Below, in pieces: positions 6,586 to 34,566 of a stretch of DNA of 64,000 nt (the first letter of the stretch is position 1; each line of letters begins with the position of its first letter). Position numbers and translations under genes: made by a program. The notes under the pieces are model-generated. The model was not told the origin of the DNA. It saw nothing but the letters and a program-made list of their open reading frames with translations, and did no database searches. Origin of the DNA: Salinicola endophyticus (GTDB lineage Bacteria; Pseudomonadota; Gammaproteobacteria; Pseudomonadales; Halomonadaceae); assembly GCF_040536835.1 (NCBI RefSeq), contig NZ_CP159578.1:1-64000 (forward strand). Direction: 5' to 3'.

Positions 6586-6614
6586 AGTATAAACGTCCTG
6601 TGGGTAACCGTCAG
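6586..6614 (-). promoter_or_regulatory. Putative mnmG promoter overlapping a DnaA-box-like site
   Basis: On the minus strand there is a CTGACG -35 (6614-6609), a 17 bp spacer and a TATACT -10 (6591-6586), 131 bp before the mnmG start. The spacer contains TTACCCACA (6607-6599), one mismatch from the DnaA box consensus TTATNCACA. Transcription from here would run away from the AT-rich origin-like stretch, as gidA transcription does in E. coli. This is a sequence match only. Confidence 0.55.
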
Positions 6615-6990
6615 GGGTTTTCCACACCGAGTGGCGGTGTCAGCCAGACCACAGAGGCATTACTAAAAAAATAAAGAAAAATAGAAAAGAAGTTCTGTAG
6701 TGATGGTTACTACTGGTGTGGACATATTTTGTGGACAAGCAGATTTTCTCTATAGAAAACATTTGCTTGGATTGTTATCGAAAGCATTGAAAAGCACTGA
6801 TGAGGCTGCTGACAGACAGCGCTCAAGCTGTGGACGAAAAGCGGCTTTATACACAGCGCCAGCGACTCAGCGCTTGTCCACCGCTGCATACGCCTGCTGT
6901 CACCGTGACGGTCCCCAGCATGGACATCGCGCTGAAGGACACGCCCGACGCGGGCTGGGTCCAGATAGGCCAAAAAACTATCCACAGGCG
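6595..6990. other. AT-rich, DnaA-box-bearing region upstream of mnmG (second origin-like region)
   Basis: The ~800 bp between mnmG and glnQ (6456-7254) shows no convincing gene. Within it is a run of DnaA-box-like nonamers: TTATACACA at 6847-6855 (perfect), TTTTCCACA at 6618-6626, and one-mismatch copies at 6599-6607, 6730-6738 (minus strand) and 6978-6986. A strikingly AT-rich segment (6658-6790) contains A-tracts such as CTAAAAAAATAAAG and could serve as an unwinding element. An E. coli-type oriC also lies beside mnmG. The stronger candidate origin is at 34.2-34.6 kb, so this may be an ancestral, secondary or vestigial origin. Confidence 0.5.
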
Positions 6991-7204
6991 GAAAAAACCG
7001 CTCGGGATAACCTTTCTGGCGCTATGGCGTGCAGATCTCGAGACGATTCGAAGGGGATTCGGGGGTGATGCCGAGAGGAATCCGGCGCCCATCGTCAGAG
7101 GGTTTGGAAATGGGCTTCAAGGGGGTGGGGTCATGACGCGAAGACAGAGCGGCGACAGGAGCCGCAGCCAGCCAGGGGCTCGTGAGAGACGGTCGAAGCT
7201 AGCG

Positions 7205-7236
7205 AGAACGGGCCACCGTCGGGGTGGCCCCGTTCT
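7205..7236 (-). terminator. Hairpin terminator downstream of glnQ
   Basis: The arms at 7205-7217 and 7223-7236 pair almost perfectly (AGAACGGG with CCCGTTCT, CCACC with GGTGG, one bulged C) around a 5 nt loop, 19 bp beyond the glnQ stop. There is no T-run on the minus strand, so termination strength is uncertain. Confidence 0.6.
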
Positions 7237-7254
7237 TGCCGGATGGGGCGTGGT

Positions 7255-8031
7255 TCAGTGTTTCAACACGCGGGAAAGGAAAGCGCGGGTGCGCTCGTGC
7301 TGGGGGTCGTCGAAGACCGCTTCCGGTTTTCCCTGCTCGACGATCTCACCGCCGTGTACGAACACCACGCGGTCGGCAACTTCACGCGCGAAGCCCATTT
7401 CATGGGTCACGATCATCATGGTCATGCCATCCTTGGCCAGTTCGCGCATGGCATCCAGGACTTCGCCGATCATCTCCGGATCCAGCGCCGAGGTGGGCTC
7501 GTCGAACAGCATCAACCGCGGCTCCATGGCCAGTGCCCGGGCCAGCGCCACGCGCTGCTGCTGGCCGCCGGAGAGCTGGCTGGGGTACTTGTCGGCCTGA
7601 TCGGCGATCCCGACGCGCTCGAGCAGGCGCTCGGCGGTGGTGTTGGCCTGCCGGCGCGACCAGCCACGCACCTTGCGCGGGGCCAGGGTCACGTTGTCGC
7701 GAATCGACAGGTGAGGGAACAGGTTGAACTGCTGGAACACCATGCCGACCTCGGTGCGTACCGCCTGCAGCGATTTGCCGCTGGCGCCGTGGGGGGCCAG
7801 GGTCTTGCCGTCGACCTCGATACGCCCGGACTGGAACGGCTCCAGCCCGTTGACGCAGCGGATCAGGGTCGACTTGCCCGAACCGCTGGCACCGATGATC
7901 ACCACCACCTCGCCCGGGGCTACGCTGAGGTCGATGTCGCGCATCACGTGCAGTTCGCCGAAGTGCTTGTTGACCTTGTCGAGGCGCACGATCGGCGTCG
8001 CGTCGCGCTGGATCTGCTTGTCGTCTTTCAT
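7255..8031 (-). CDS. glnQ: Polar amino-acid (glutamine-type) ABC transporter, ATP-binding subunit
   Basis: This 258-residue cytoplasmic ATPase powers a PAAT-family importer. Walker [10 protein letters not shown] is at residues 47-55, the Q-loop is in [11 protein letters not shown] near 98, the ABC signature LSGGQQQR is at 153-160, Walker B is [13 protein letters not shown] at 173-185, and the switch histidine is in VTHEMGFA near 210. The frame stays open upstream into the permease gene, but the ATG at 8031 overlaps the permease stop (ATGA) and begins the conserved domain. The operon order glnH-glnP-glnQ and the close resemblance of the binding protein to GlnH suggest glutamine as substrate. 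Substrate assignment is inferred. Confidence 0.88.
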
Positions 8032-8696
8032 CCCACCAGCCCCTTGCGTTCGAGCAGACTCAGAGCCATCGACAGGCTCAGGGTGATCGCCAGATAGAGA
8101 AGCGCGATCATGAAGTAGACCTCCAGCGCGGTGAAGGTCTGGGCGATGTAGACCTGACCCTGGCGCACCAGCTCGCCGACCCCGATCACCGAGAACAGCG
8201 AGGTGTCCTTGATGCTGACGATGCCCTGGTTGCCGAGGGCCGGGATCATGCGCCGCAGCGCCTGGGGCCAGATGATGTACTGGAACGTCTGAGTCGCGGA
8301 GAGGCCCAGCGACAGCCCCGCCTCGCGCTGGCCGCGCTCGATCGACTGCACGCCACCGCGCACGATCTCCGAGATATAGGCCCCGGCGTTGAGCGCGATG
8401 GCAGCGATCCCTGCGGTGAGCGCATCGATCGGCCCGCCCAGCAGGGTCGGCAGCCCGTAGAAGATGAACAGCACCTGGACCAGTACCGGGGTACCGCGGA
8501 ACACTTCGATATAGAAGACGGCGGGATAGCGCAGCCAGCGGCTGGGGGCGATGCGCATCAGACCGAAGAGCATGCCGATGACGAAACCGATGGCCAGGCC
8601 ACCGAAGGAGATCAGCAGGGTATAGGGCACACCCTTGAGCAGATAGGGCAGGGAGGCGATCGCCGCCTGCCAGTCGAACTGAAAATGCAGGTCCAC
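8028..8696 (-). CDS. glnP: Polar amino-acid (glutamine-type) ABC transporter permease
   Basis: The 222-residue inner-membrane subunit of a His/Glu/Gln importer has about five membrane helices. The EAA loop that docks the ATPase is at [21 protein letters not shown]. The N-terminal [13 protein letters not shown] and the [14 protein letters not shown] segment are characteristic of the HisM/GlnP family. I chose the GTG at 8696, which has GGAGACC about 9 bp upstream and gives family-typical length; the frame stays open to a GTG at 8747 that has no ribosome-binding site. It overlaps glnQ by 4 bp. Confidence 0.87.
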
Positions 8697-8771
8697 GAAA
8701 GAGGTCTCCGTCGAGCGGACGCCAGCGACGACCGACGCCGTCGCCACGCCGCAATATCAGGGCCCGAAGGC

Positions 8772-8799
8772 AGCGGGCCGGAGGTGTCTCCGGCCCGCT
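8772..8799 (-). promoter_or_regulatory. Stable stem-loop between glnH and glnP
   Basis: A perfect 12 bp stem (8772-8783 with 8788-8799) closes a GTGT loop in the 115 bp gap between glnH and glnP. No T-run follows on the transcribed strand, so it is unlikely to be a full terminator. Such intercistronic stems after a binding-protein gene usually protect the upstream mRNA, so that GlnH outnumbers the membrane subunits. That role is inferred. Confidence 0.65.
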
Positions 8800-8811
8800 C
8801 GGGATGCAGCG

Positions 8812-9585
8812 TTACTTGGCGTCCGGCGCCTTGCCGAACCACTTCTCGTAGATCTCGTCGTAGCTGCCGTCCTTGTGCATCGCGGCGAGCGCCTGATTGA
8901 CCGGCTCGACCCAGTCACTGCCCTTGGCCAGGGCGATGCCGTACTGCTGGCCTTCGTAGAGCGGGCCGACCGTCTCGACCCGACCCTTGCCCTTGGTCTG
9001 GGCGAAGTAGCCGACATTGGGGGCGTCGTAGAAGACCGCGTCGACATTGCCGCCCATCAGCGCCATGTACATGTCGGAGCTGCCCGGGTAGGGCGTGATC
9101 TCGGCCTTGTCGCCGAGCTGCTTCTGGAGGAAGTCGTAGCTGGTGGAGCCGATCTTGGTGCCGATGCGCTTGCCGGCGAGATCATCGAGTGTCTTCACTT
9201 CGCTACCATCCTTGACCAGGATGCGCAGGCCGGAGTCGTAGTAGGGATCGCTGAAGTCGACGATCTTCTGGCGTTCGTCGGTGATGGTGATGCCGGCGAT
9301 GGCCAGGTCGACGTTGCCGGTCTGTACCGCGGGGATGATGCCGTTGAAATCCATGGTCTTGAGATCGACGTCGAAGCCGGCGCGATCGGCGACTTCCTGC
9401 AGGATATCCATGTCGAACCCGACCATCTTGCCGCTGTCCTGATCCATCATCTCGAACGGGACGAAGCTGGGATCGGTGACGGCCTTGAGCGTGGTCTGCT
9501 GGGCGTTGGCCACGCCGCCGACGCCCAGGGAGAGCGCCAGGGCCGAGAGGGCCAGTGTCTTGCGGAGGCGAGCGTTGTTTTTCAT
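8812..9585 (-). CDS. glnH: Glutamine-type ABC transporter periplasmic binding protein
   Basis: The 257-residue precursor has a signal peptide (MKNNARLRK, a hydrophobic core, cleavage after VANA). The mature protein carries the PAAT-binding signatures DPSFVPFEM, GFDMDILQEVA and the GITITDERQKIVDFSDPYY block, plus YDEIYEKWFG at the C-terminus, all close to E. coli GlnH. The ATG at 9585 follows TTGAGGTC; an upstream in-frame start would spoil the signal peptide. Upstream are two inverted repeats, TGATTG/CAATCA (9602-9620) and CCTCAAG/CTTGAGG, which may be operator elements. Glutamine is the most likely ligand. Confidence 0.88.
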   Translation of the reverse strand: MKNNARLRKTLALSALALSLGVGGVANAQQTTLKAVTDPSFVPFEMMDQDSGKMVGFDMDILQEVADRAGFDVDLKTMDFNGIIPAVQTGNVDLAIAGITITDERQKIVDFSDPYYDSGLRILVKDGSEVKTLDDLAGKRIGTKIGSTSYDFLQKQLGDKAEITPYPGSSDMYMALMGGNVDAVFYDAPNVGYFAQTKGKGRVETVGPLYEGQQYGIALAKGSDWVEPVNQALAAMHKDGSYDEIYEKWFGKAPDAK

Positions 9586-9669
9586 GTAGACCTCAAGTGG
9601 TTGATTGAACAAAACAATCACTCACTACCTTGAGGAGGTCCGGGGCTAGCGTCAAGAGAGACGATGGGC

Positions 9670-9693
9670 GCGCGGCGGCGATACCCGCCGCGC
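9670..9693 (-). terminator. GC-rich hairpin downstream of erpA
   Basis: A 9 bp stem (GCGCGGCGG at 9670-9678, CCGCCGCGC at 9685-9693) with a 6 nt loop lies immediately after the erpA stop. The minus-strand sequence beyond it is pyrimidine-rich but lacks a clean T-run. It would separate erpA from glnH transcription. Confidence 0.5.
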
Positions 9694-9697
9694 CGGC

Positions 9698-10051
9698 TCA
9701 CACCGAGAAAGAAGCGCCGCAGCCGCAGGTGGACTGAGCGTTGGGATTCTTGACCAGAAAGCGGGCGCCGGCCAGGCCCTCTTCATAGTCGACGGTGGAG
9801 CCGACCAGATACTGATAGGAGAGCGCATCCACCACCAGGCTGACGCCGTCGTTGTCGATCACGGTGTCATCCTCGGCGAGCTGATCGGCGAGATCGAAGC
9901 CGTACTGAAAGCCGGAACAGCCGCCGCCGGTGACGTAGACCCGCAGCTTGAGGTCGGGGTTGTTCTCCGCCGCGATCAGCGCCTTGACCCGGCGGGCGGC
10001 GGCATCGGTGAAGAACATCGGGGTGGGAGCGAAGGACTCCACTGTACTCAT
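9698..10051 (-). CDS. erpA: Iron-sulfur cluster insertion protein ErpA (A-type carrier)
   Basis: This 117-residue A-type carrier delivers Fe-S clusters to apoproteins such as isoprenoid-synthesis enzymes. The three conserved cysteines are C45 ([11 protein letters not shown]) and the C-terminal pair C109 and C111 (STCGCGASF). The ATG at 10051 is preferred to an in-frame GTG two codons upstream because AGGG lies 9 bp from the ATG but only 3 bp from the GTG. It is monocistronic with its own promoter and is divergent from the CLC gene. ErpA rather than IscA is favoured by the [21 protein letters not shown] stretch and the lack of isc neighbours. Confidence 0.93.
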
Positions 10052-10131
10052 CGTCACGTTCCCTGAGTGTCGGGGGTGCCGACCTCGTCGGTGGAAGGGT
10101 TGCGCAGGCCGGATCGCCTGTCTATGGGGCC

Positions 10132-10161
10132 ATTATCGTTAATACCCAGTAAAAGGGTCAA
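10132..10161 (-). promoter_or_regulatory. Sigma-70 promoter of erpA
   Basis: On the minus strand, TTGACC (10161-10156), an 18 bp spacer and GATAAT (10137-10132) form a good promoter about 80 bp upstream of erpA. The spacer includes TTTACTGGGTATTAAC. IscR control is known for erpA in E. coli, but I could not recognise a clear IscR site here. Confidence 0.65.
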
Positions 10162-10374
10162 CTTTGGCGCTGCCGCCAGGGCGCGAGATGATCGCGTCGC
10201 CGAGTGAGGGTGAGCGTGTATGATGTCATGACCGTTTCACGCTCGCACGGTGGCTGCCATCGGGTTGATGACAGGGCAGCCGATGACAGCTGGTCTACGA
10301 CAGAGTGACCGGTGAGCAGCCGACCGAGCGCAGGGCGGGCACTGGTCCAGGGTTTCAAGGAGAGCGGTTTGCGC

Positions 10375-12129
10375 ATGCCGAGGTTCGCTCTGCGACGTCT
10401 GAGTCTCGATCGTTTCCGCAGCCAGTTGGCGAGCGTCGATGCCATGCCTCAGCTGTGCCTGCTGGGCATCTTCGCCGGCATTCTCACCGGCAGTGTGATG
10501 GTGCTGTTCCGCCTGCTGCTCAAGCTCGGCGCCTGGTTCTTCATGCCCGATGGCAACCCGGAGGCGTTCGAGGCGTTGCCGCCGCCGATTCGCGCGCTGC
10601 TGCCGCTGATCGCGGTGTGCCTGATCGGCGTCTGGCTGTGGCCGCAGCCCAGTCGTGCGCTGAAGATGGGGATCGGCCATGTGATCGAACGTCTCGCCTA
10701 CCAGCAGGGCAAGATGCCGCTGCGCAACTGGATCAACCAGTGGTGGGTCGGGGTTATCTCGGTCATCGGCGGCCTCTCCGCTGGCCGTGAAGGGCCGGCG
10801 ATCCACCTCGGTTCGGCGGCCTCGAGCTGGATCGGCTCGCGTCTGCGTCTGCCCCACAACAGCCTGCGCGTGCTGGTGGCCTGCGGCACCGCGGCCGGCA
10901 TCGCGGCATCGTTCAACACCCCCATCGCCGGGGTCATCTTCGCCATGGAAGTGGTGATGATGGAGTACACCATCGCCGGCTTCATGCCGGTGATTCTCGC
11001 CTCGACCATGGGCGCGCTGGTGTCGTGGGCGGTCTACGGCGCCGAGCCGGCGTTCAGCGTTCCCCCGTTGCAGCTCTCCTCGCTGATGGATCTGCCCGGT
11101 ATCGTGCTCACCGCGCTGGTGGTGGGGCTGCTGGCGGGGGGCTTCGTGCGTCTCGCCCAGGGCCACCCGGCGGTGACCCGGCTGCCGTTCGCCCTGCGTC
11201 TGGCGCTGATCGGCGGGCTGACGGCGCTCGCCGCCTGGTGGTATCCACAGGTCCAGGGGATCGGCTACGACAGCATCGACCGCATGCTCAACGCCAGCAT
11301 GACCCTCGATGTGCTGCTGGCCCTCGCCGTGGTCAAGCTGGCGCTGACTGCGATCTGCATGGCCGGCGGCGTGTCGGTGGGCATCATCGGCCCGCTGCTG
11401 GTCTCGGGAGCGGCGACCGGTGCGCTGCTGGGGGCGCTGGGCGCGATGCTGTGGCCGAGCGTGGTCGATACCCCGGCGCTCTACGCCGTGCTGGGCATGG
11501 CGGCGATGATGGCGGCGGCGCTGCAGGCCCCCCTGGCGGCGCTGCTGGCGCTGCTGGAGTTGACCCGCAATACCGAGATCATGCTGCCCGGCATGCTGGC
11601 AGTGGTGGTGGCGGTGATGACCGCGCGCCAGCTCTGCGGCTGTCAGGGCTTCTTCATGTCGCATCTGGCTCAGCAAGGGCTGCATCCGTTGCAGCAGCCG
11701 CTGATGCAGGCGCTGTCGCGGGTGGCGGTGCCGGCCGTGATGGAGCGCAATCTGGCGCGGACGCCGCGGGTGATCGACCACGAGCGCGCCAAGTCGCTGC
11801 TCGATGCCAAGCCGACCTGGCTGATCATCATGCAGGACGACAAGGAGAAGCCGCCGCTGGCAATGAAGGCGGCCAACCTGGCCCGCGTGCTGCATGACGA
11901 TGCCTGGCTCGCCGAGCATCCGCAGATCGATCTCGAGGAGGTGCCCGGGCAGCGTCTGGAGCTGGCCCCGGTGCACCTGGAGGCGACGCTGTCGGAAGCC
12001 TACGATACCCTCAATGAATCCGGGTTGGAGGCGCTCTACGTCGAGCACACCACGGCGCCGATGATCCGCAAGATTTCCGGTATCATCACCCGCGAGGCGA
12101 TCGAGAATTATTATCGGCGCAAGCGCTGA
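10375..12129 (+). CDS. CLC-family chloride channel/transporter
   Basis: This 584-residue membrane protein of the CLC family moves chloride. The gating-glutamate motif AGREGPAIHLGSA is present (E139), as are SFNTPIAGVIFAME and the GIIGPLL equivalent of the GIFAP motif. The C-terminal ~150 residues form a cytoplasmic CBS-like region with ARTPRVIDHERA and a final SGIITREAIENYY. The position matching the internal proton glutamate of E. coli ClcA (E203) is valine here, as in CLC channels, so channel rather than H+/Cl- exchange activity is possible. The frame is open from a GTG at 10312, but AAGGAG lies just before TTG 10369 and ATG 10375, so I chose the latter. Confidence 0.88.
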   Translation: MPRFALRRLSLDRFRSQLASVDAMPQLCLLGIFAGILTGSVMVLFRLLLKLGAWFFMPDGNPEAFEALPPPIRALLPLIAVCLIGVWLWPQPSRALKMGIGHVIERLAYQQGKMPLRNWINQWWVGVISVIGGLSAGREGPAIHLGSAASSWIGSRLRLPHNSLRVLVACGTAAGIAASFNTPIAGVIFAMEVVMMEYTIAGFMPVILASTMGALVSWAVYGAEPAFSVPPLQLSSLMDLPGIVLTALVVGLLAGGFVRLAQGHPAVTRLPFALRLALIGGLTALAAWWYPQVQGIGYDSIDRMLNASMTLDVLLALAVVKLALTAICMAGGVSVGIIGPLLVSGAATGALLGALGAMLWPSVVDTPALYAVLGMAAMMAAALQAPLAALLALLELTRNTEIMLPGMLAVVVAVMTARQLCGCQGFFMSHLAQQGLHPLQQPLMQALSRVAVPAVMERNLARTPRVIDHERAKSLLDAKPTWLIIMQDDKEKPPLAMKAANLARVLHDDAWLAEHPQIDLEEVPGQRLELAPVHLEATLSEAYDTLNESGLEALYVEHTTAPMIRKISGIITREAIENYYRRKR

Positions 12130-12197
12130 GCGCAGGCTTGTTACCGATAGCGAGTAGATAACGCCTAGACGGATAGCGAGTGAAGAGGAAAGCACGC

Positions 12198-12269
12198 ATG
12201 CGACGATCTAAAGGCTACCTCGACACCACCGTGAAGGCCCCCATGAGCGGGTGCGGGAGGGGCATATGA
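12198..12269 (+). CDS. 23-codon leader ORF overlapping the thiD start
   Basis: An ATG preceded by AGAGGAAAGCACGC opens a 23-residue reading frame (MRRSKGYLDT... ending in SGCGRGI) whose TGA overlaps the thiD ATG (ATGA). The thiD ribosome-binding site (GGGAGGGG) lies inside this ORF, so its translation could be coupled to thiD. I do not recognise the peptide. It could equally be a chance frame; the favourable points are the Shine-Dalgarno sequence and the exact stop/start overlap. Confidence 0.35.
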   Translation: MRRSKGYLDTTVKAPMSGCGRGI

Positions 12270-13093
12270 TCCGTTACGACGACAAGCCGGTGGTGCTGGT
12301 GCTGGCGGGGCACGACCCCAGCGGTGGCGCCGGGCTGGTGGCAGATGCCGAGGCGGTACGCGGCTGCGGCGGCTGGCCGGTCACCATTCCCACCGCGATG
12401 ACCGTGCAGTCGACCCGCGACGTGCACGCGGTCGAGCCATGCAACGGCGACTTCATCCGCCGCGCCGCCAGGGCGCTGTTCGAGGATTTCCGCATCGCTG
12501 CGATCAAGGTGGGGCTGATCCCCGACGCCGAGGTACTGGCGGCGATCATCGATGTGGCGCGCATGCGCCCGGGGATTCCACTGATCGTCGATCCGGTGAT
12601 CGCCAGCGGCAGTGGCTCTGAGTTATCCACACCCGGTCTGGCCGCTGACATCCGCAATCGTCTCTTACCCCTTGTGGATATCTTGACCCCCAACCGCCGC
12701 GAGCTTTCGCTGCTGGCCACTCAGCCGGCGGCGGACGAGGTCGCCCAGGTGGTCGAGGTGATGTCGCTCGGCTGTGCCGCGGTGCTGGTCACCGGCACCG
12801 ACCCGCTGGAGGGCGAGCCGACCGCCGGGCACGTGGTGCATACGCTGCATACTCCGGAGCTCAACCGCCAGTGGCAGTGGCCGCGGCTGCCGGCCGACTA
12901 TCACGGTTCCGGCTGCACCCTGGCCTCGGCGCTGGCTACCCGGCTCGCCGCCGGTGAAGGGCTGGCTGCCGCCTGCGCTCAGGCGCAGCGCTTCACCTGG
13001 GATACTCTCGATCACGGTCTGGCGCTGGGCCGGGGGCAGTTTCTGCCCGACCGGGTATGGCGGGCGCCCGACTTCGATGCCACGCTGGAGTGA
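12266..13093 (+). CDS. thiD: Hydroxymethylpyrimidine/phosphomethylpyrimidine kinase ThiD
   Basis: The 275-residue ribokinase-fold enzyme phosphorylates HMP and HMP-P in thiamine synthesis. [18 protein letters not shown] is the N-terminal substrate site (near residue 15), and [14 protein letters not shown] (near 211) carries the anion hole and catalytic cysteine. [11 protein letters not shown] and [10 protein letters not shown] are typical. The start at 12266 has GGGAGGGG upstream at 5 bp; the frame's GTG at 12251 is less likely. It is followed by thiE after 2 bp, in the order thiD-thiE-hemL known from pseudomonads. No TPP riboswitch was recognised upstream. Confidence 0.92.
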
Positions 13094-13095
13094 CG

Positions 13096-13782: not shown

Positions 13783-13799
13783 TGGGTAGAAATGATCTC

Positions 13800-15086: not shown

Positions 15087-15120
15087 GCCGACCGCGCCGC
15101 CATCGACAGGGAGACCCGGC

Positions 15121-21523: not shown

Positions 21524-23779
21524 TTAAGCGCTGGCGCTAGGTTCGCTGTCGTCCTTGATCGCGGCGATGAACTCGTCGCCCCAGCGCCGGATATCGTTGT
21601 ACTCGACGATGTCGTTGAGCTGGCGCAGGCGTGCCTGGGCCTCGGCGCGGGGCAGGTTGAGCCCCAGATAGCAGGTGCGCGCCAGGTCGTGCAGATCGTG
21701 GGGGTTGGTCAGGATCGCGCCCTTCAGCTCCGCCGCGGCACCGGTGAACTCCGACAGCACCAGCACGCCGCAGCCCTGGGTCAGCCCCTGGGTGGCGACG
21801 AACTCCTTGGCCACCAGATTGAGTCCGTCGCGTAGCGGGGTAATCCACATCACGTCGGCCATGGCGTACCACGCCATCAGCTCTTCGAACGGGAAGCCGC
21901 GGAAGTAGAACTGCACCGGGGTCCAGCCGACGTCAGCGAAGCGGCCGTTGATATGGCCGATGGTCTGCTCGATCTGAGTCTGCAGCTCGTCATAGATGGT
22001 CATTTCACGCGCCGCCGGCACGCAGATGCTGACCAACGTGACCTTGCCGCGCAGCTCGGGGTTCTCGTCGAGCAGCAGTTCGTAGGCCTTGAGCTTCTCG
22101 AGGATCCCCTTGGTGTAGTCGAGGCGTTCGACCGAGAGGATCAGCTTCATGCCCTCGAACTCGTCGCGCAGTTCGGCCATGCGCGCCTCGGCGCCGTCTT
22201 GTTCCAGGGCATTGCGGATACGTCCGAGATCCAGACCCACCGGATGCGCTCCCAGCCTGACCACGCGTGAGCCGGTGTCGATCGCCGTGGTCATGGTCTC
22301 CAGCCCTACCGCGCAGCCGTAGGTGAGAAAGCGTGGGGCGCAGTTCTGGCGTGACAGCGTGGTCAGCGGCACCACGCCGCGGGCGACGTCGACGAAGTTC
22401 TCCACCTGGCGCGGAATGTGGAAGGCGACGTAGTCGCACTGCAGCAGGCTGCCGACGATCTCGCGGCGCCACGGCAGCACGTTGAAGACGTCCGCCGAGG
22501 GGAAGTAGGTGTGGTGGAAGAAGGCGAGGCGCAGGTCCGGGCGCAGCTCGCGCAGATAGGCCGGTACCATCCACAGGTTATAGTCGTGGATCCAGACCAG
22601 CGCGCCCTCGGCGGCCTCCTCGGCGGTGCGCTCGGCGAAGGCGCGGTTGACCTCGCAGTAGGTGTCCCAATCCTCCTCGCGGAAACGGGCACGCTCCCAG
22701 AAGGTGTGCAGCGTGGGCCAGAACGCCTCCTTGGAGAAGCGTTTGTAGAAGATGTCCACCTGCGCCTTGGTCAGCGCCACGCGGGCCGCGGTGAGCAGCG
22801 GATACTGCTTGGCGTCGACGCTGGTGTGGGTGACGAAGTCCTCGGGCTCCTCTTCGCCTTCGTAGATCGACCAGGCGATCCACGAGCCGCGCTGATTGGC
22901 GAAGAAGCTCTGCAGCGTCGGGATGATGCCGTTGGGCGAGGTCGGGCGGCGGCGGCGGATCTTGCCGTCGACGCGATACTCTTCGTAGGGCAGGCGGTGG
23001 TAGACCATCACCAGCTCGGCCTTGCCGGTATGGGTGGTGTCGCGGCGATTCTCCGCCGCCAGCCCGCGCGCGCCCAGGAAACCGAAGTGCGCGAAAGCTT
23101 CGATGATGCCGCCGCAGCCGGCAGCGCTGGCGTGCATTACCTGCGGCAGCGACTGGGTGCGCTCGAGCAGCTCGGGCTCGGCGTCGCCTACGCAGACCGC
23201 CTTGAAGCCGGCGCTCAGCATCGCCAGGTCGTTCATGGTGTCGCCCGCCACCAGCACCTCGTCGTGGGCGATGCCCAGCCACTCGACCAGCTTCTGGAGA
23301 CTGGAGCCCTTGTTGACCCCCTGCGGCAAGAAGTCGAGATAGCGTCCGGCGGAGTAGAGCATCTCGCAGCCGAGCTCGTCGGCCAGCGCGGCAAGTTCGG
23401 GATTGTCTGCCTGCTCCGGGGCGCAGTAGTAGGAGCAGCGCCGGATCTGCGGCTCGTCCTGGCGCACGATCTCGGGGAAGCGGCTCATCGCGCTGGCGAT
23501 ACGCGATTCGCCCGGCCAGCACTCGTCGATGGGGTTCTGCAGCGCCTGGATCGGCTGCAGGGTGTCGCCGTGATAGAGGCTGGCGCCGACGTCGGCGACG
23601 ATATAGTCGGGCTGCGGCAGCGTGGGGTCGGAGAGCAGCGGCAGGATCGCCTCGAGGCTGCGCCCGCTGACGTAGGCCAACTGGATTTCCGGATGCGCGG
23701 CGATGGTCTGGTAGAGGCTCAGGCGGTCCTCCGGGGCGCCACCGAGAAAGGTACCGTCGAGATCGGTCGCTAGTAGCAT
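21524..23779 (-). CDS. ggpPS: Fused glucosylglycerol-phosphate phosphatase/synthase
   Basis: The 751-residue two-domain enzyme makes the compatible solute glucosylglycerol from ADP-glucose and glycerol-3-phosphate. The N-terminal HAD phosphatase (about 1-250) has LLATDLDGTFLGG, YVSGRSLEAI, VNKGSSLQKL and VLVAGDTMNDLAML. The C-terminal GT20 glycosyltransferase (about 255-751) has VWIHDYNLWMVPAYLR, AFFHHTYFPSADVF and SVERLDYTKGILEKL. SPNGIIPTL in the acceptor region is the pattern of GgpS rather than trehalose-phosphate synthase OtsA. The same domain order is known for GgpPS of salt-tolerant Pseudomonas. ATG follows AGGAGAAGAAC. A trehalose-type product cannot be fully excluded by eye. Confidence 0.87.
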   Translation of the reverse strand: MLLATDLDGTFLGGAPEDRLSLYQTIAAHPEIQLAYVSGRSLEAILPLLSDPTLPQPDYIVADVGASLYHGDTLQPIQALQNPIDECWPGESRIASAMSRFPEIVRQDEPQIRRCSYYCAPEQADNPELAALADELGCEMLYSAGRYLDFLPQGVNKGSSLQKLVEWLGIAHDEVLVAGDTMNDLAMLSAGFKAVCVGDAEPELLERTQSLPQVMHASAAGCGGIIEAFAHFGFLGARGLAAENRRDTTHTGKAELVMVYHRLPYEEYRVDGKIRRRRPTSPNGIIPTLQSFFANQRGSWIAWSIYEGEEEPEDFVTHTSVDAKQYPLLTAARVALTKAQVDIFYKRFSKEAFWPTLHTFWERARFREEDWDTYCEVNRAFAERTAEEAAEGALVWIHDYNLWMVPAYLRELRPDLRLAFFHHTYFPSADVFNVLPWRREIVGSLLQCDYVAFHIPRQVENFVDVARGVVPLTTLSRQNCAPRFLTYGCAVGLETMTTAIDTGSRVVRLGAHPVGLDLGRIRNALEQDGAEARMAELRDEFEGMKLILSVERLDYTKGILEKLKAYELLLDENPELRGKVTLVSICVPAAREMTIYDELQTQIEQTIGHINGRFADVGWTPVQFYFRGFPFEELMAWYAMADVMWITPLRDGLNLVAKEFVATQGLTQGCGVLVLSEFTGAAAELKGAILTNPHDLHDLARTCYLGLNLPRAEAQARLRQLNDIVEYNDIRRWGDEFIAAIKDDSEPSASA

Positions 23780-25135: not shown

Positions 25136-25340
25136 GGCATCTCTCCCGAGGAAGGCTCTGTCTCTACCATGCAGTAAGCATGCCGTTCGGGCCGTGGGTC
25201 GCTTAAAGACGCCTATCGATAATGCAGTGTTATCGAAAAAGGGGGATTTCGGGGTGAGAAGTTATCATCATCCTGCACCTCAAGAGCAATATTTTGCACC
25301 TCGATGGTGCGCAGTCCGGGCTTGGGCATCCGTGGCGAGC

Positions 25341-26273: not shown

Positions 26274-26314
26274 CGATTCATTCTCCGGCTGAATTGGCTA
26301 TCTTCGTGGTCGAC

Positions 26315-26545: not shown

Positions 26546-26754
26546 GGCGGAGGCTCCCGGGTTCGATGAGGGAGCGTCCAGCTTAGGCAGCCGCCGGGGT
26601 GCCACACAGAGGCAGAAAACGACTATCTCCGGCACACAGACAGGCGCTTTTCCGCTCTGTATGCCTGTTTTGTGCGCGATCTGTCACGTGAAGCACCAGG
26701 CGCAAGCATACACAATGATCGGCGTGACACCCGATGCGATGTGAGGAGGGGAGG

Positions 26755-28197: not shown

Positions 28198-28231
28198 TTC
28201 CTCGCTTTCGGCCACGTCACTCGGTCGCTGC

Positions 28232-28879
28232 TCAGTCGATCAGGCGAGTCACTTCGGCGGCGATCGCTTCGCCCAGCAGACGCTGCTGATCGGGTTCGAA
28301 GTGCACACCATCGACTTCACTGACCTGGATCAGGGTGCCGGCGTCGACGAAGCCGACACCCGCCTCCCGCGCCATCTTGCGGTAGCGGCTCGCCAACTGG
28401 CGCGATTTGCGCTCGCCGCCGGCGAAGATGCCGGCCAGGGGGCCGATCTCACGGATCGGTGCCGGCGCGATCAGCAGCACCTTGGGGGGTGCCACGCCGA
28501 ACTGGGTACTGACGGCGTCGATCTCCCACAGCAGCCGCTGCATGCTCAGGGCAATATCGTCGGGGGTGACGGAGAAACGCGCCTTGAGATCGTTGGTGCC
28601 CAGCATCAGCGTCATCACGTCCAGCGGTAGCTGGCTGAGCAGACACGGGCGCAGATAGCGCAGACCGTTGAGATGCACCCCTTCGATGGGGTCGTCGTGC
28701 AGGGTGGTGCGTGCCGGCAGACCCTCCTCGATCACCCGCCACTCGCTGCCCAGGGCCGCGGCCATCACTCCGGTCCAGCGCGTCTCGAAGGGGTAGCGTG
28801 AAAGCGGCCCCAGCGCCTTGACCGGCTCGGTCCCGTGGGTGTTGGAGTCGCCGTAGCAGAGCAGGGTACGCGTGGTCAT
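28232..28879 (-). CDS. SGNH/GDSL-family hydrolase (arylesterase-like)
   Basis: The 215-residue enzyme has all SGNH blocks: LCYGDSNTHGTEP (nucleophile serine at residue 12), the block II glycine around GLPART, block III LMLGTNDLKARF, and block V VDGVHFEPDQQ with the catalytic Asp and His. Similar proteins act as arylesterases or acyltransferases. There is no signal peptide, so it is cytoplasmic. The ATG follows GGAGATCCACG. It is convergent with the MocR gene. Confidence 0.85.
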   Translation of the reverse strand: MTTRTLLCYGDSNTHGTEPVKALGPLSRYPFETRWTGVMAAALGSEWRVIEEGLPARTTLHDDPIEGVHLNGLRYLRPCLLSQLPLDVMTLMLGTNDLKARFSVTPDDIALSMQRLLWEIDAVSTQFGVAPPKVLLIAPAPIREIGPLAGIFAGGERKSRQLASRYRKMAREAGVGFVDAGTLIQVSEVDGVHFEPDQQRLLGEAIAAEVTRLID

Positions 28880-28948
28880 CGTGGATCTCCGGTGTGCGGT
28901 GGCGTTCAGTATGAACGCGGTGCGCAGACCACGGTACCCTGCGGATGG

Positions 28949-29812
28949 CTAACGCGTGCGGAACACCAGCGCCACGCCGCCGAGGATCGCGGCCATGCCG
29001 AGAATGGCCAGCGGCGAGAGCGCGTTGCCCAGCAGCAGATAGTCCAGCACTGCGGTGACGATCGGCACCAGATAGAACAGGCTGGTGACGTTGACCAGGT
29101 TGCCCTGCCGGATCATTCGGTAGAGCAGCAGCTGTGCCAGTACCGAGATCACCAGCCCCAACCACACCACGGCGACGATCAGCCCCGGCTGCCAGCTGAC
29201 GCTCACCGGGCGCCACGGCGTCAGCAGCAGGAACAGCATCAGGCTTGCCAGGTAATGCAGCGGCAGCACCCGGCTTGGCGGCAGAGCGATCGACTTCTGC
29301 CCGATCGCGCCGAGAGTCATGCAGGCCAGAGTGGCCAGTGCCAGCAGGATTCCGAAAGCGGGAAAGCGTGCGGCCATCAGGCTCTGTAGTACCACCAGCG
29401 CCAGGCCGCAGAGCGCCAGCAACAGCCCGGCGCTACGCCAGCCGGAGATCCGGCGCTCGGTCAGCAGCAGCGTCAGCAGCGGCTGGATGCCCAGCAGGGT
29501 CGCCAACAGCCCGGGGGTGATGGCGTGGTCCAGCGTTTCGAAATAGCACACCGAGTAGCCACCGATCAGCAGCGTGCCGACACCAGCCACGCGTAGCCGC
29601 TGACCCCGCGGAGGCAGCCAGGCCGCACCTCTTGCCGTGAGCGGCAGCAGCACGCCCAGGGCGAGCAAGAAGCGCAGGATCAGCAGTGCCAGCGGCGAGC
29701 CATGGTCCAGTCCCCAGCGGGTGAAGATCGGCGCGCTGCCCCACAGCAGCACGAACAGGGCCATCGGGGCGGCCTGGCCCCATGAAGAAGAACGGTTCAT
29801 ATGAAGACTCAT
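28949..29812 (-). CDS. EamA/DMT-family transporter
   Basis: The 287-residue protein has ten hydrophobic helices forming two EamA repeats; the first begins at ALFVLLWGSAPIFTRWGL and the second near LATLACMTLGAIGQKS. Members export amino acids or metabolites or are of unknown substrate. Two ATGs are possible (29812 and 29800); neither has a strong ribosome-binding site, and the longer is given. It lies 69 bp upstream of, and co-directional with, the SGNH hydrolase gene. Confidence 0.8.
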   Translation of the reverse strand: MSLHMNRSSSWGQAAPMALFVLLWGSAPIFTRWGLDHGSPLALLILRFLLALGVLLPLTARGAAWLPPRGQRLRVAGVGTLLIGGYSVCYFETLDHAITPGLLATLLGIQPLLTLLLTERRISGWRSAGLLLALCGLALVVLQSLMAARFPAFGILLALATLACMTLGAIGQKSIALPPSRVLPLHYLASLMLFLLLTPWRPVSVSWQPGLIVAVVWLGLVISVLAQLLLYRMIRQGNLVNVTSLFYLVPIVTAVLDYLLLGNALSPLAILGMAAILGGVALVFRTR

Positions 29813-30193
29813 CTGTCGAAGACGTGACGACCGTTCGCCGGACGCGATATACGTCGACCGGTATGAACAGCGAACGGGGAGTGTCGAGCTAGGGCTGGTC
29901 GAGCGTGATCAGCCCAGTGCGACGAGGCGTGGTGGCGCTTGCACGCCAGCGACGCTCACGACGACCGCAGGCGGTGCCATGGTGTCAGCTAAGACGTCAG
30001 CCACGACTCGCGCGACAGAGGAGCGGGGGGGAGGTGTCGCCGCCAGCACCTGCGGCCCTACCGATATCTCGGCAAGGCGGGCAGCGTGCGTATGCTGGAC
30101 GTGTGGCGACATGGGAAACCGTCATTCGAGTGTGAATATCCGTCCATCAGCATAGCGCCGGCGACTGCATCGGAGAAGTCGACTTTTGGCCGA
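29813..30193. other. Intergenic region between mnmE and the EamA gene; no gene seen
   Basis: This 381 bp stretch follows the mnmE stop. It is ordinary in composition, and the open frames across it are arginine-rich with no family features. No clear T-tailed terminator was found. It marks the right edge of the 24 kb block separating mnmE from mnmG. Confidence 0.4.
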
Positions 30194-31564
30194 TCACTTG
30201 CCGATACAGAAGCTGCCGAAGATCTCGCCGAGCAGATCGTCGGCGGTGAATTCGCCGGTGATCTCGTTGAGCGCCTGCTGGGCGTCGCGCAGATCCTCGG
30301 CGAGCAGCTCGCCGGCGGCGGCGCCCTCCAACTGGGCCGTGCCGCTGGTCAGCGCCTGGCTGGCGCGCTCGAGGGCATCCAGGTGGCGGCGGCGGGCGGA
30401 GAAGCGCCCCTCGGTGGTGGCATCGAAGCCCATTACCGCCTTGAGATGGGTCTTGAGCTCATCTATCCCCGCGCCGGTATGCGCCGAGAGGCGGATCACC
30501 GGCGGCGTGGCATCGAAGTCGGCGGCGTCGCCCTCACCGCTCTCGTCGATCTTGTTGCGCACCAGCGTCAGCCGCTCGGGGTGAGGCAGGCGGGCGACGA
30601 ACTCGGGCCAGATCGCATTCGGGTCGGTCTCGGCGGTGGTGCGGGCATCGACCAGTAGCAGTACGCGGTCGGCCTTCTCGATCTCGGCCCAGGCGCGGGC
30701 GACGCCGATCTGCTCCACCGCATCGGGGGTGTCACGCAGGCCGGCGGTATCGATCACGTGCAGCGGCATGCCGTCGATATGGATATGCTCGCGCAGCACG
30801 TCGCGGGTGGTGCCCTCGATCTCGGTGACGATGGCGCTGTCGCGCTCGGTGAGACGATTGAGCAGGCTCGACTTGCCGGCGTTGGGGCGTCCGGCGATCA
30901 CTACGCTCATGCCTTCGCGCATCAGCGCGCCCTGGTTGGCGCTGGCGCGCACTGTGGACAGGGTCTCGCGCAGCGCCGCCAGCTTGGCCGCGACCACGCC
31001 GTCGGCGAGGAAGTCGATCTCCTCTTCGGGGAAGTCGATGGCCGCTTCGACGTAGAGGCGTAGCTCGATCAGCTCGCCGACCAGCTGCGAGACACGGCTG
31101 GAGAACTCGCCCTGCAGTGAGCGCAGGGCGTTCTCCGCGGCGGCGCGGGAGCTGGCGTCGATCAGATCAGCGATCGCCTCGGCCTGGGCCAGGTCGAGCT
31201 TGTCGTTGAGAAAGGCGCGCTCGGAGAACTCGCCCGGCCGTGCCAGGCGCGCGCCCAGCGCCACGCAGCGCTCCAGCAGCATGTCCATGAGCACCGGACC
31301 GCCGTGGCCCTGGAGCTCGAGCACGTCCTCGCCGGTGAACGAGTGGGGGCCGGGGAAGTAGAGCGCGATACCCTCGTCGATGATGCCCGCCTCGGCGTGG
31401 AAGGGGCCGTAGTGGGCGCGGCGCGGCGGGGGGCGGTGGCCCAGCAGGCGCTCGGCCATGGCCCCGGCGTCGGGCCCGGAGACCCTGACGATACCCACGC
31501 CACCACGTCCCGGGGGCGTGGCCAGGGCGGCGATGGTGTCCTGACGATAGAGCGGTGCGTTCAT
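30194..31564 (-). CDS. mnmE: tRNA uridine-5-carboxymethylaminomethyl modification GTPase MnmE (TrmE)
   Basis: The 456-residue GTPase acts with MnmG on wobble uridines. The N-terminal tetrahydrofolate-binding domain begins [21 protein letters not shown]. The G domain shows G1 [12 protein letters not shown] near residue 224, G2 GTTRD, G3 DTAGLR and G4 NKID. The C-terminal CIGK carries the catalytic cysteine (C453). ATG 31564 follows GGAGACCGTG; the frame continues upstream to 31720 through a terminator hairpin and is rejected. It belongs to the leftward rpmH-rnpA-yidC-mnmE series. Confidence 0.97.
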
Positions 31565-31645
31565 CACGGTCTCCGGTGACACGGGGTGGGTGGCGCCGCT
31601 CGGGGCCGCGCGCGGGTAGTTGTACAGGAAGGCAGGCCATAAACG

Positions 31646-31673
31646 CCAGACCCCCGCCGGGGCGGGGGTCTGG
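31646..31673 (-). terminator. Hairpin terminator between yidC and mnmE
   Basis: CCAGACCCCCG (31646-31656) pairs with CGGGGGTCTGG (31663-31673), an 11 bp GC-rich stem with a 6 nt loop, located 19 bp past the yidC stop. On the minus strand CGTTTATGG follows, a short T-run. It implies mnmE is at least partly transcribed separately. Confidence 0.65.
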
Positions 31674-31691
31674 GAGGGTTCGCTGGGGCGA

Positions 31692-33374
31692 TCAGCTCTT
31701 CTTGAGCGCCTTGCCGCCACCGCTGTCGTCCTTGAGGACGCGCTGGGTGATGAACCACTGCTGCAGGATCGAGATCGAGTTGTTGACGATCCAGTAGATG
31801 ACCAGACCGGCCGGGAACCACAGGAAGAAGAAGGTGAAGACGATCGGCAGCATCTTCATGATCTTCGCCTGCATTGGGTCCGGCGGGGTCGGGTTCAGGA
31901 ACTGCTGCAGCAGCATGGTGCCGCCCATGATGATCGGCAGAATGAAGTAGGGGTCCTTGGCCGAGAGGTCATGGATCCACAGGATGAAGGGCGCGTGGCG
32001 CAGCTCCACCGACTCCATCAGCATCCAGTAGAGCGCGATGAACACCGGCATCTGGATCACCATCGGCAGGCAGCCCCCCAGAGGATTGATCTTCTCCTTC
32101 TGGTAGAACTTCATCATCTCCTGCGACATCTTCTGGCGGTCGTTGCCGTACTGCTCCTTGAGCCGCTGCATCTCCGGGCCCATCTTGCGCATGCGGGCCA
32201 TCGACTTGTAGGCCTTGGCCGCCAGCGGGAAGAGCACGATCTTGACGCAGACGGTGAGCAGGACGATCGACCAGCCCCAGTTGCCGACGATGTCGTGGAT
32301 GTGGTCGAGCAGCCAGAACAGCGGGTTGGCGAGGAACCACAGCCAGCCGAAGTCGACCGTCAGCTCCAGATGCGGGGCCACTTTTTCCAGCTCCGACTGG
32401 ACCTTGGGACCGACGTAGAGGGTCGCGGCGAGCGTCTCTTTCTGGCCCGGCTGGACGGTTTCGTTGGGGCCGGCGAATGCCGCCACGGTGCGATCGCGAT
32501 TGTCGACGCTGCCGTAGTAGAGGTTCTGCTGATCCGGGTTGGGCACCCACGCGGAGGTGAAGTAGTGCTGGATCATCGCCACCCAGCCGCCCTTGACGTC
32601 GCGGTTCTGGAAGTTGCCCTTGCGGATGTCCTCGAAGCTGACCTTGCTGTACTTCTCCTCCGGCGACGAGAAGGCCGCGCCCAGGAAGGAGTGCATGCCG
32701 ACACCCTGGCCGCTGGTCGGATCGGCGCTCTGATCGCGGGCGAGCTGGCCGATGAAGCGGGCGGTGACCGGCTGCTGGCTTTCGTTGTCGAGCAGATACT
32801 CGACCTTGATCGCGTAGCTGTCGCGGTCGATCACGAAGCGCTTGATGATATCGACGCCGTTGACGCTGCCGTGCAGGTCGACATTGAGGCTCTTCTCGCC
32901 TTCGCTGAGCGTGTAGCTCGACTTGTCGGCGCGGAAATCGATACGTCCGCTATGCCCCTCGATCTGCAGGCCGGACTTGGCCACGTAGCTGCGCACCTTG
33001 TTGTCGCTGAGCAGCACGAAGGGCTTGTCGGAGTCGAGGACCTGGTCATGGCCGAACAGCGCGGCGTAGACGATATCGCCGCCGTTGGGGTTGATGCGCA
33101 GGTCGAGCACGTCGCTCTGGACCTGGATCAGGTTGCTGCCCTTGGCGGGTTCACTGCCCGCGGGCATGTCGTCCTCGATCGGCTGGGTCTTGCCTTTACC
33201 GCTGTCGGGGGCGGAGAGGGCATTACCTTCCTTGCCACCGTCGCTGGTAGCGGAGGCGACTTCCGGTGCCGGGTTGTTCACGACGTTCTGACCGTAGTCC
33301 TGATTCCACTGCATGATCAGCAGATAGGCGAGCACGGCCAGCGGAATCACGAAAAGGAGTCGTTTGAAATCCAT
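31692..33374 (-). CDS. yidC: Membrane protein insertase YidC
   Basis: The 560-residue inner-membrane insertase has an N-terminal helix ([18 protein letters not shown]), a large periplasmic domain (about 30-340), and the conserved five-helix core at the C-terminus. Core features include [44 protein letters not shown] as the cytoplasmic coiled loop, [21 protein letters not shown], and a final basic tail. Low-complexity D/G/K residues near 50-75 form the linker. It lies 105 bp from rnpA; the small yidD gene usually found between them is not apparent. Confidence 0.96.
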
Positions 33375-33479
33375 AGAGGGGTCTGCCCGGTAAGGGAGTT
33401 GTTCGGTAGGCGCCGGGCAACGGCGATCATTCGGCGATGGACGCCGAAGCTCCCCGGCCAGCAGCGCGGGGATGTCCGA

Positions 33480-33863
33480 TCAGGTCGACGAGGTGTCGTG
33501 GCGCGTCTGACGCGCGGACTTTTCCAGGCGTCGCCACATGCCGTTGAGCTGGCGTGCGACGCTTGCATTGTCCAGCTCGTGTACGCCTCGCCGAGCGAGA
33601 AGAACGATATCCACGGGCGGCAGGCGATGCTGCTGCAGACGGATGGATTCGCGCACGAGGCGTTTGAGGCGATTGCGGTCGACGGCACGACGCACGTTCT
33701 TCTTGCTGAAGATCAACCCGATCCGCGGATGGCCAAGCGCGTTGGGGCGTGCCAACACCAGCATGCCTTTACCGTGGACCTTGAAGGGAGCGTGGTCGAA
33801 AACGTGCTTGTAGTCCCCGGCGTTGAGCAACCGAAGCTGCCGGGGGAAACCCTGATCGGACAC
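33480..33863 (-). CDS. rnpA: Ribonuclease P protein component RnpA
   Basis: The 127-residue basic protein assists the RNase P RNA in maturing tRNA 5' ends. The RNR motif RRAVDRNRLKRLVRESIR is diagnostic (near residue 50). The N-terminus VSDQGFPRQLRLL aligns without gaps to the E. coli start, supporting the GTG at 33863 although the frame is open to 34025 across rpmH. The start codon sits inside a perfect 12 bp inverted repeat. It follows rpmH by 11 bp. Confidence 0.93.
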   Translation of the reverse strand: MSDQGFPRQLRLLNAGDYKHVFDHAPFKVHGKGMLVLARPNALGHPRIGLIFSKKNVRRAVDRNRLKRLVRESIRLQQHRLPPVDIVLLARRGVHELDNASVARQLNGMWRRLEKSARQTRHDTSST

Positions 33864-33879
33864 CCTATGTCCGATCAGG
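33851..33879 (-). promoter_or_regulatory. Perfect 12 bp inverted repeat across the rpmH-rnpA junction
   Basis: CCTGATCGGACA (33851-33862) and TGTCCGATCAGG (33868-33879) are exactly complementary around a CCCTA loop. The stem includes the rpmH stop codon (33875-33877), the intercistronic gap and the rnpA GTG (33863-33861), so the RNA hairpin would bury the rnpA start. It may lower RnpA relative to ribosomal protein L34, as attenuators or processing sites do in other rpmH-rnpA operons. Function is inferred. Confidence 0.75.
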
Positions 33880-34009
33880 CGCTGAGACGCTTGCGACCTT
33901 TGGCACGACGACGATTGATGACCTGACGGCCGTTCTTGGTCGCCATGCGGGCACGGAAGCCGTGGACGCGCTTGCGCTTCAGGACGCTCGGCTGAAAAGT
34001 ACGTTTCAT
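33875..34009 (-). CDS. rpmH: 50S ribosomal protein L34
   Basis: The 44-residue basic protein begins [20 protein letters not shown] and ends [13 protein letters not shown], the near-universal L34 sequence. The ATG is at 34009-34007 and the TGA at 33877-33875. It is the first gene of the leftward rpmH-rnpA operon, facing dnaA across the origin. A clear promoter lies at 34128-34156. Confidence 0.97.
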
Positions 34010-34127
34010 GGTGGCTTTTTCCCAATTGGTTGAGTGATTAAGCTATTGATTTAGCTCGAAAAACTGGTTCGAAACGGGATGCCCGACACGCGTACGGAAA
34101 CCGGGCTCACTCGGCTCAAGAGCGGGA

Positions 34128-34156
34128 ATTCTAGTGAATCAGGCGATCGGGTGCAA
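34128..34156 (-). promoter_or_regulatory. Sigma-70 promoter of rpmH-rnpA
   Basis: On the minus strand, TTGCAC (34156-34151), a 17 bp spacer and TAGAAT (34133-34128) form a near-consensus promoter about 110 bp upstream of rpmH. A perfect DnaA box (34169-34177) lies 13 bp upstream of the -35. Confidence 0.75.
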
Positions 34157-34168
34157 TTTTTCTCTGAA

Positions 34169-34566
34169 TTATCCACACCCGTTTGTGGGCGAAACCCTTG
34201 CGTCACATCGCCGCGGCGGTCACGCGCGCACGCCGTTAGGTAGCGAAGCGATCGGTAGCCGAGGGCGGCCATGATCGTCCGCGGCTTATCCCCACCCCGC
34301 TGGCTTGTCAATCACACCATGTGGTTAAGGATGGGGATAATGTTTGTGGGTAACTCACAATAGTTATTAATTTTCAGTAATTTATGTGATTTTCTGGCCT
34401 GTGGGGAAGATGCGTAAGAGAGGTGAAAATCCTGCGAGCGGCAGGAACGCACGAGGCGCCATGCGTCGGTGAAAGCGCGTCATCGGGCGATCGTTTTCCC
34501 TAGGCTGTCAACCGCTTTTCCGCCGTTTATCCACAGAGGAATGACCTGGCGACCACGTGTGGATAA
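34169..34566. other. oriC: Predicted chromosomal replication origin oriC (rpmH-dnaA intergenic)
   Basis: The ~620 bp between rpmH and dnaA contains three perfect DnaA boxes: TTATCCACA at 34169-34177 and 34527-34535, and its complement TGTGGATAA at 34558-34566. Near matches are TTATCCCCA (34286-34294 and, inverted, 34332-34340), TTACCCACA (34345-34353 complement) and TTCCCCACA (34400-34408 complement). An AT-rich unwinding-type segment lies at about 34350-34397 (TAGTTATTAATTTTCAG and neighbours). Flanking genes diverge (rpmH leftward, dnaA rightward), as in Pseudomonas origins. This is the best origin candidate in the window. Confidence 0.85.

Follow-up and report, generated by a model that had tools for sequence, protein, structure and literature searches.

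In Escherichia coli, the replication origin (oriC) lies beside mnmG, and some 42 kb from it the dnaA promoter has a DnaA-box cluster of its own (PMC12000880). For Pseudomonas aeruginosa, two autonomously replicating regions have been reported, of which only one is essential (PMC4403523), and the origin has been placed beside dnaA (PMC3642087). For the Halomonadaceae, Table 1 of PMC7174414 gives the motif ACAGAACTTC for oriC, annotated as DNA unwinding element (DUE), in a work that reports agreement with DoriC in 67.90% of chromosomes. Here we analyse the first stretch (bases 1-64000, hereafter the window) of the closed, single-contig genome of Salinicola endophyticus (4,319,187 bp), which holds two origin-like regions 28 kb apart, one in the gap upstream of mnmG (the mnmG gap) and the other in the gap between rpmH and dnaA (the dnaA gap). 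We propose that the mnmG gap (6456-7254, core 6573-7012) is very probably the working oriC, and that the rpmH-dnaA gap is an ancestral DnaA-box cluster that most likely serves in the control of dnaA and may be a reserve start. The proposal is built on the DnaA boxes, the AT-rich elements, the conservation of both, the gene order and a skew switch on the mnmG side.

Results

The GC skew was sampled over 1.264 Mb of the 4.319 Mb genome, as a contiguous 484 kb around the window and 39 pieces of 20 kb. The sampled skew is positive from the window up to the piece that ends at 2.117 Mb; beyond it, from the piece that begins at 2.194 Mb, the sign is negative as far as the end. Two pieces depart weakly from this pattern, at 164 kb (-0.007) and at 3352 kb (+0.002). 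The best single change point is found at 0.5 kb (block-bootstrap 95% interval, -10.5 to 12.8 kb), the cumulative skew of the contiguous 484 kb reaches its minimum at position 301, and the relative log-likelihood of the raw skew is -2.2 at the mnmG gap versus -31.8 at the dnaA gap. The skew at third codon positions (GC3), corrected for gene strand, places the best switch at -7.3 kb (2-log-unit support, -8.3 to 8.7 kb), with log-likelihoods of -1.5 at mnmG and -14.0 at dnaA; these GC3 fits rest on a crude gene finder, and relatives are poorly resolved by them. A sequence-only reading of the window had proposed the position of the skew switch as a check, supposing that a single switch could demote the mnmG side. 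There is indeed a single switch, but it is the dnaA gap that it demotes, and the suggestion that the mnmG side may be a relic runs opposite to the skew. Between the two gaps, 23 of 27 one-kb windows are skew-positive, and the 19 genes predicted at 7-34 kb have a GC3 skew, balanced for strand, of +0.082 (0.026 to 0.128), the values for the right and left arms being +0.048 and -0.048, respectively. Since the DNA between the clusters has the skew of the right arm, forks appear to cross it from mnmG rightwards.

Exact TTATNCACA sites occur seven times in the window, versus a mean of 0.19 and a maximum of 3 in shuffled sequences (0 of 100 shuffles reach 7), and 31 times in the whole genome, versus 2 for the reversed control pattern. 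Half of the 24 boxes with at most one mismatch in the 64 kb lie within the two gaps, five in the mnmG gap and seven in the dnaA gap. The same gaps contain the least stable DNA of the window by nearest-neighbour stacking: at lengths of 50, 80 and 120 bp, the first stretch starts at 6659 and the second at 34310-34336. Across the family, the count of boxes with at most one mismatch per 700 bp ranges from 5 to 10 for mnmG gaps (30 loci) and from 4 to 8 for dnaA gaps (29 loci, a further one being too short); 120 control slices of mnmG loci average 0.55 and never exceed 3. Both box clusters are real and well above chance. The earlier reading had listed three exact and four near boxes in the dnaA gap, one exact and several near boxes in the mnmG gap (we find four, each with one mismatch), and an AT-rich stretch in each; all of these were recovered (Table 1), and with them its claim of two origin-like regions, both of which combine above-chance boxes and unstable DNA. 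The possibility that the DNA at 6.6-7.0 kb is AT-rich by chance is ruled out by the box counts, the conservation and the skew.

Three further exact boxes, absent from the list of the earlier reading, lie outside the gaps, two within mnmG, at 5366-5374 (-) and 6061-6069 (+), and another at 12623 (+). The box at 5366-5374 (offset 1081 of the coding sequence) is kept in 17 of 18 genomes of the same genus; codon constraint could explain its retention, and DnaA titration is possible. Pairs of exact TTATNCACA sites less than 50 bp apart occur at two other places in the genome, 2118409-2118431, near the terminus, and 3378863-3378910, and these are candidates for DnaA reactivation or titration sites.

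The mnmG gap is intergenic and directly upstream of mnmG, and its box cluster is conserved; the putative AT-rich unwinding element sits between the boxes and mnmG, and the gap lies at the GC-skew minimum in this genome and, by raw skew, in three of four relatives, with one against. In a strand-set alignment of mnmG gaps, the core 6573-7012 is kept in all 18 genomes of the same genus (set g1, which includes the source genome). The best conserved 20-bp steps of the core are those at the box sites and on the mnmG promoter side (0.85-0.97), and some other steps within it are low (0.43-0.57). No SeqA gene was found and the gap holds only 2 GATC sites, so that sequestration of the enteric type is unlikely; Dam/SeqA features are known as a trait of enteric and related origins and not of mnmG-linked origins in general. 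The motif ACAGAACTTC occurs once in the window, at 6689-6698. Family-wide, 27 of 30 loci have it on the upstream side of mnmG, as do 10 of 11 named Halomonadaceae loci, and none of 29 has it upstream of dnaA. This evidence is not wholly independent of the skew, because nearness to the skew minimum was an assumption behind the initial oriC set of PMC7174414. At 7080-7122, in the gap's outer part, there is a stretch of about 35 bp that resembles a short interspersed repeat, with at least 22 further partial or whole copies in the genome (40 of 128 candidates were scored, and one match of another part was excluded).

The second region resembles a Pseudomonas-type oriC in its DnaA boxes, its AT-rich DNA and its place between rpmH and dnaA, but there is no skew switch at this gap in the present genome. 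Boxes are located 68-107 bp before the start codon of dnaA, as in a DnaA-autoregulated dnaA promoter, and by their position they appear suited to the control of dnaA. PMC8203912 reports for Pseudomonas putida that an increase in its own DnaA left dnaA unrepressed, and treats the role of the boxes in that species as open; repression of dnaA by DnaA therefore cannot be assumed here. Models (nhmmer) of the two gaps find the family well and, across genera, cross-match each other. For the dnaA-gap model, the best Pseudomonas match of this type (L141; E 1.5e-9) falls, as was confirmed, in the gap between rpmH and dnaA. The model also hits mnmG gaps on the opposite strand, that of a Ferrimonas about as well (E 2e-8); the Pseudomonas match therefore partly reflects shared boxes.

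Genomes in which the two genes are far apart allow the position of the switch to be compared between them. Of 151 family genomes, all but G024 and G128 entered the comparison, and in these 149 both mnmG and dnaA were located. The distance between them could be measured in 115, after setting aside 18 with the genes on different contigs and 16 wrapping the record start. Most of these, 104 genomes, have the genes 17.1-102.9 kb apart. Shorter distances occur in six genomes of genus g3 (4.5-5.2 kb), in four of a second genus, g4 (9.6-11.6 kb), and in a single further genome (13.4 kb); in 113 of the 115 the two genes are divergently oriented. Four widely separated relatives were picked, three of one contig each (G037, G015 and G142) and one of two contigs (G089). 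In G037, mnmG is located at 482.9 kb and dnaA, 103 kb away, at 585.8 kb, and the raw switch lies at 474.5 kb (95% interval, 456.7-487.8). In G015 (39 kb apart) it lies at 1211.5 kb (1204.0-1221.0), mnmG being at 1210.6 and dnaA at 1171.4 kb, and in G142 (44 kb apart) a fit restricted to 40-280 kb and to upward steps puts the switch at 136.5 kb (mnmG, 134.5 kb; dnaA, 90.3 kb). Thus, the raw switch follows mnmG in four of five genomes, the source genome included, and dnaA in G089. By the GC3 control, too, mnmG is the better fit in those four genomes and dnaA in G089, but the margins for the relatives are small (log-likelihoods at mnmG and dnaA, respectively, of -1.6 and -4.8 in G037, -2.9 and -6.3 in G015, and -2.2 and -3.1 in G142).

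A further shared trait is an opposed pair of boxes spaced 117 bp apart upstream of mnmG, which is found in 18 of 18 genomes of the same genus, in 7 of 12 other family genomes, in 9 of 11 named family loci and in all four widely separated relatives; some genomes may be counted in more than one of these sets. The named groups are subsets of 80 loci, picked by name. Outside the family, the pair occurs in 27 of 28 Pseudomonas/Stutzerimonas loci and in one of seven of the Microbulbifer/Saccharophagus/Porticoccus group. It occurs in none of 13 of the Vibrio/Shewanella/Pantoea group, which has other shared spacings, of 106 bp (11 loci) and 180 bp (7 loci). Nine Pseudomonas/Stutzerimonas loci inspected all carry a second cluster on the left side of mnmG. 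The 700-bp window that holds it begins 4.7-5.3 kb off in eight of them and 9.1 kb off in the ninth, and in every case it overlaps the rpmH-dnaA gap. Because the 117-bp spacing recurs upstream of mnmG in Pseudomonas/Stutzerimonas, both clusters look ancestral. The simplest history would be that both are old and flanked mnmE-yidC-rnpA-rpmH, and that an insertion between the mnmG array and mnmE parted them in most of the measured Halomonadaceae.

From left to right, the window carries parB, parA, rsmG, mnmG, the mnmG gap and then about 23 kb of other genes, followed by mnmE, yidC, rnpA, rpmH, the dnaA gap, dnaA, dnaN, a gene of RecF/RecN/SMC type and gyrB (coordinates in Table 1). The RecF/RecN/SMC-type gene is assigned as recF by its place after dnaN. 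The 44-residue open reading frame at 33875-34009 we take to be rpmH; its product matches 43-residue stretches adjoining dnaA in 11 of 11 Pseudomonas/Stutzerimonas loci. The block of about 23 kb contains transporter genes, thiD-like and rdgB-like genes, hemW and a gene for glucosylglycerol-phosphate synthase, among others. The last of these (21527-23779) encodes an N-terminal part resembling HAD phosphatases, and as a compatible-solute gene it fits a halophile. Among the matches returned for MnmG, from which the source genome and very near ones may be missing, the closest named relatives are Salinicola peritrichatus and Salinicola rhizosphaerae (92%). A cluster of five parS-like sites, of which one is exact and the others have a single mismatch, is located at 48523-52093, 12-16 kb past dnaA, and only two further sites with at most two mismatches are found in the genome, at 108.8 and 4247.5 kb.

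Table 1. Coordinates of the two origin-like regions and of the genes around them in the window
Feature	Position	Strand	Basis
Gap upstream of mnmG with conserved core (6573-7012), proposed as active oriC	6456..7254	.	
DnaA box, 1 mismatch, TTACCCACA, mnmG promoter side; conserved	6599..6607	-	
DnaA box, 1 mismatch, TTTTCCACA; conserved	6618..6626	+	
Putative AT-rich unwinding element, least stable 80-bp stretch of the window	6659..6738	.	Computed stability
ACAGAACTTC, Halomonadaceae oriC (DUE) motif	6689..6698	-	PMC7174414, Table 1
DnaA box, 1 mismatch, TTGTCCACA, edge of AT-rich element; arm of 117-bp pair	6730..6738	-	
Exact DnaA box TTATACACA; other arm of 117-bp pair	6847..6855	+	
DnaA box, 1 mismatch, CTATCCACA; conserved	6978..6986	+	
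rpmH-dnaA gap, second DnaA-box cluster, dnaA promoter region, possible reserve origin	34010..34633	.	
Exact DnaA box	34169..34177	+	
Four DnaA boxes, 1 mismatch each (34286+, 34320-, 34332-, 34345-)	34286..34353	.	
AT-rich DNA, next after 6659..6738 in instability in the 80-bp scan of the window	34315..34394	.	
Exact DnaA box	34527..34535	+	
Exact DnaA box	34558..34566	-	
mnmG (gidA)	4563..6455	-	TIGR00136
Amino-acid ABC transporter gene, ATPase part GlnQ-like (residues 256-496); first gene past the mnmG gap on the dnaA side	7258..8754	-	
mnmE	30197..31720	-	
yidC	31695..33374	-	
rpmH (presumed), 44 residues	33875..34009	-	Translation
dnaA	34634..36109	+	TIGR00362
dnaN	36132..37343	+	

Discussion

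The locus described here shares traits with each of the nearest known systems. As described for E. coli, an AT-rich element and boxes are linked to mnmG and a second cluster is found at dnaA, tens of kilobases off; the 117-bp pair, the lack of a detected SeqA gene and the scarcity of GATC sites set the mnmG gap of the window apart. In E. coli, mnmG lies between oriC and dnaA, whereas in the source genome the proposed origin lies between mnmG and dnaA. The boxes and AT-rich element of the mnmG gap nevertheless follow the order of E. coli oriC, which is boxes, unwinding element, mnmG. With Pseudomonas, the locus shares the cluster upstream of mnmG, with its 117-bp pair, and the second cluster in the rpmH-dnaA gap; the difference is that the two are about 5 kb apart in Pseudomonas, so that skew can hardly separate them, and 28 kb apart here, through inserted genes. 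The two-region arrangement of Pseudomonas reportedly goes back to Yee and Smith (1990) and to Jiang et al. (2006), according to PMC4403523 and PMC3642087, which cite them. The contrast drawn in the sequence-only reading, between a Pseudomonas arrangement at dnaA and an E. coli arrangement at mnmG, is too simple, as Pseudomonas itself has the same array on the mnmG side. The gammaBOriS / BOriS DB set for Halomonadaceae has its motif in our mnmG gap, and differs in that, in the available portion of PMC7174414, no flanking genes and no second cluster are named for this family. An oriC on the mnmG side of Halomonadaceae is therefore already implied by that work, and layouts of this kind, with two clusters, are already known for E. 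coli and Pseudomonas. A literature search, of partial coverage and mostly without subscription journals, found no description of the split pair in Halomonadaceae.

We infer DnaA binding, melting and fork firing, and a regulatory role for the dnaA gap. At the mnmG gap, DnaA would fill the box array at 6730-6986 and melt the AT-rich element (6659-6738) that separates these boxes from the mnmG promoter, with helicase then being passed to both strands. The left fork would run through mnmG, rsmG, parA and parB, and the right fork through the inserted genes, mnmE, yidC, rnpA and rpmH and then past dnaA, meeting the transcription of rpmH, rnpA, yidC and mnmE head-on before copying dnaA. The rpmH-dnaA gap would most likely bind DnaA to set the expression of dnaA, and is a possible reserve rather than the usual start site.

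Several observations weigh against this proposal. The skew is a historical average and no measurement of firing; rpmH, rnpA, yidC and mnmE are oriented toward an origin at mnmG, and their transcription would therefore oppose the fork; and the parS cluster (48.5-52.1 kb) is closer to dnaA than to mnmG, 42-45 kb from the proposed origin. The dnaA gap is the richer in exact boxes, three versus one, and is likewise conserved, chiefly near rpmH, at the central boxes and near dnaA, in an alignment of 16 of the 18 genomes of the genus (left out were G128, with dnaA cut by a contig end, and G131, with a stop inside dnaA). In the mnmG gap, the exact box at 6847 lies in poorly conserved steps (identity 0.63-0.65 in the 18 genomes), its place seemingly being kept more than its letters. 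As for the relatives, the first raw fit in G142 was a downward step at 11 kb, mnmG being favoured only after the restriction, and the best GC3 points fall at neither gap (622 kb in G037, 1187 kb in G015 and 172 kb in G142). In G089, where the genes are 89 kb apart, the switch at 3054.5 kb (95% interval, 3010-3123) lies beside dnaA (3051.1 kb) and away from mnmG (3140.5 kb), with log-likelihoods at dnaA and mnmG of -1.2 and -26.1 (raw) and 0.0 and -8.9 (GC3). The mnmG array of this genome is normal, with the 117-bp pair and ACAGAACTTC present, its dnaA gap also has a 117-bp pair, and in the region analysed (2895001-3295000) several further changes of skew sign follow over the 200 kb to the right of the switch. 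The skew of G089 might stem from an insertion or rearrangement between the genes, or from a real change of origin.

These points bear on the alternative that replication mainly starts in the rpmH-dnaA gap, the site first described for Pseudomonas, with the mnmG array doing no more than bind or titrate DnaA or regulate mnmG. The three exact boxes and the AT-rich stretch, the conservation of the gap in the 16 aligned genomes, the switch of G089 and the placing of the P. aeruginosa origin in PMC3642087 all speak in its favour, but a switch at 34 kb fits the skew of the source genome far worse than one at 6.8 kb, in the raw as well as in the GC3 data, the raw fits in G037, G015 and G142 disfavour it too, and the Halomonadaceae oriC motif of PMC7174414 sits in the other gap. 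Disfavoured by the skew, the dnaA gap is very improbable as the main origin. A regular firing of both regions in the same cells, as two neighbouring origins, a question raised by the sequence-only reading, we consider extremely improbable. Both regions have boxes and a stretch of the unwinding type, and both are conserved; yet frequent leftward forks from 34 kb would weaken or reverse the intervening skew, and the 27 kb between the gaps have a right-arm skew that is not weaker than that of the right arm itself, with no second switch, which argues against double firing.

The dnaA gap could also be a dormant, conditional origin, firing under stress or when the origin at mnmG is blocked, and this we regard as rather unlikely. 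Across the genus the gap keeps its boxes and AT-rich DNA, and its model matches the equivalent gap of a Pseudomonas; the two autonomously replicating regions of P. aeruginosa (PMC4403523) and the DnaA-dependent initiation zone that borders dnaA in E. coli rnhA-type mutants after UV (PMC12000880) provide precedents. The control of dnaA alone could, however, keep the boxes, the same model matches the mnmG gap of a Ferrimonas about as well, and the E. coli zone is broad, with the authors of PMC12000880 merely suggesting a role for the dnaA-promoter boxes. A more far-reaching version is that the Halomonadaceae keep two complete DnaA-dependent origins, sharing ancestry with the two Pseudomonas arrays, of which the one at mnmG fires normally and the one at dnaA is a conserved reserve able to take over, G089 being maybe a lineage in which it has; this we hold to be quite doubtful.

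As the clusters are 17-103 kb apart in 104 of the 115 Halomonadaceae measured, the question of which of them is the origin is answerable in this family by means of skew, and the data favour mnmG. This is a warning against habitually setting the origin at dnaA in Halomonadaceae.

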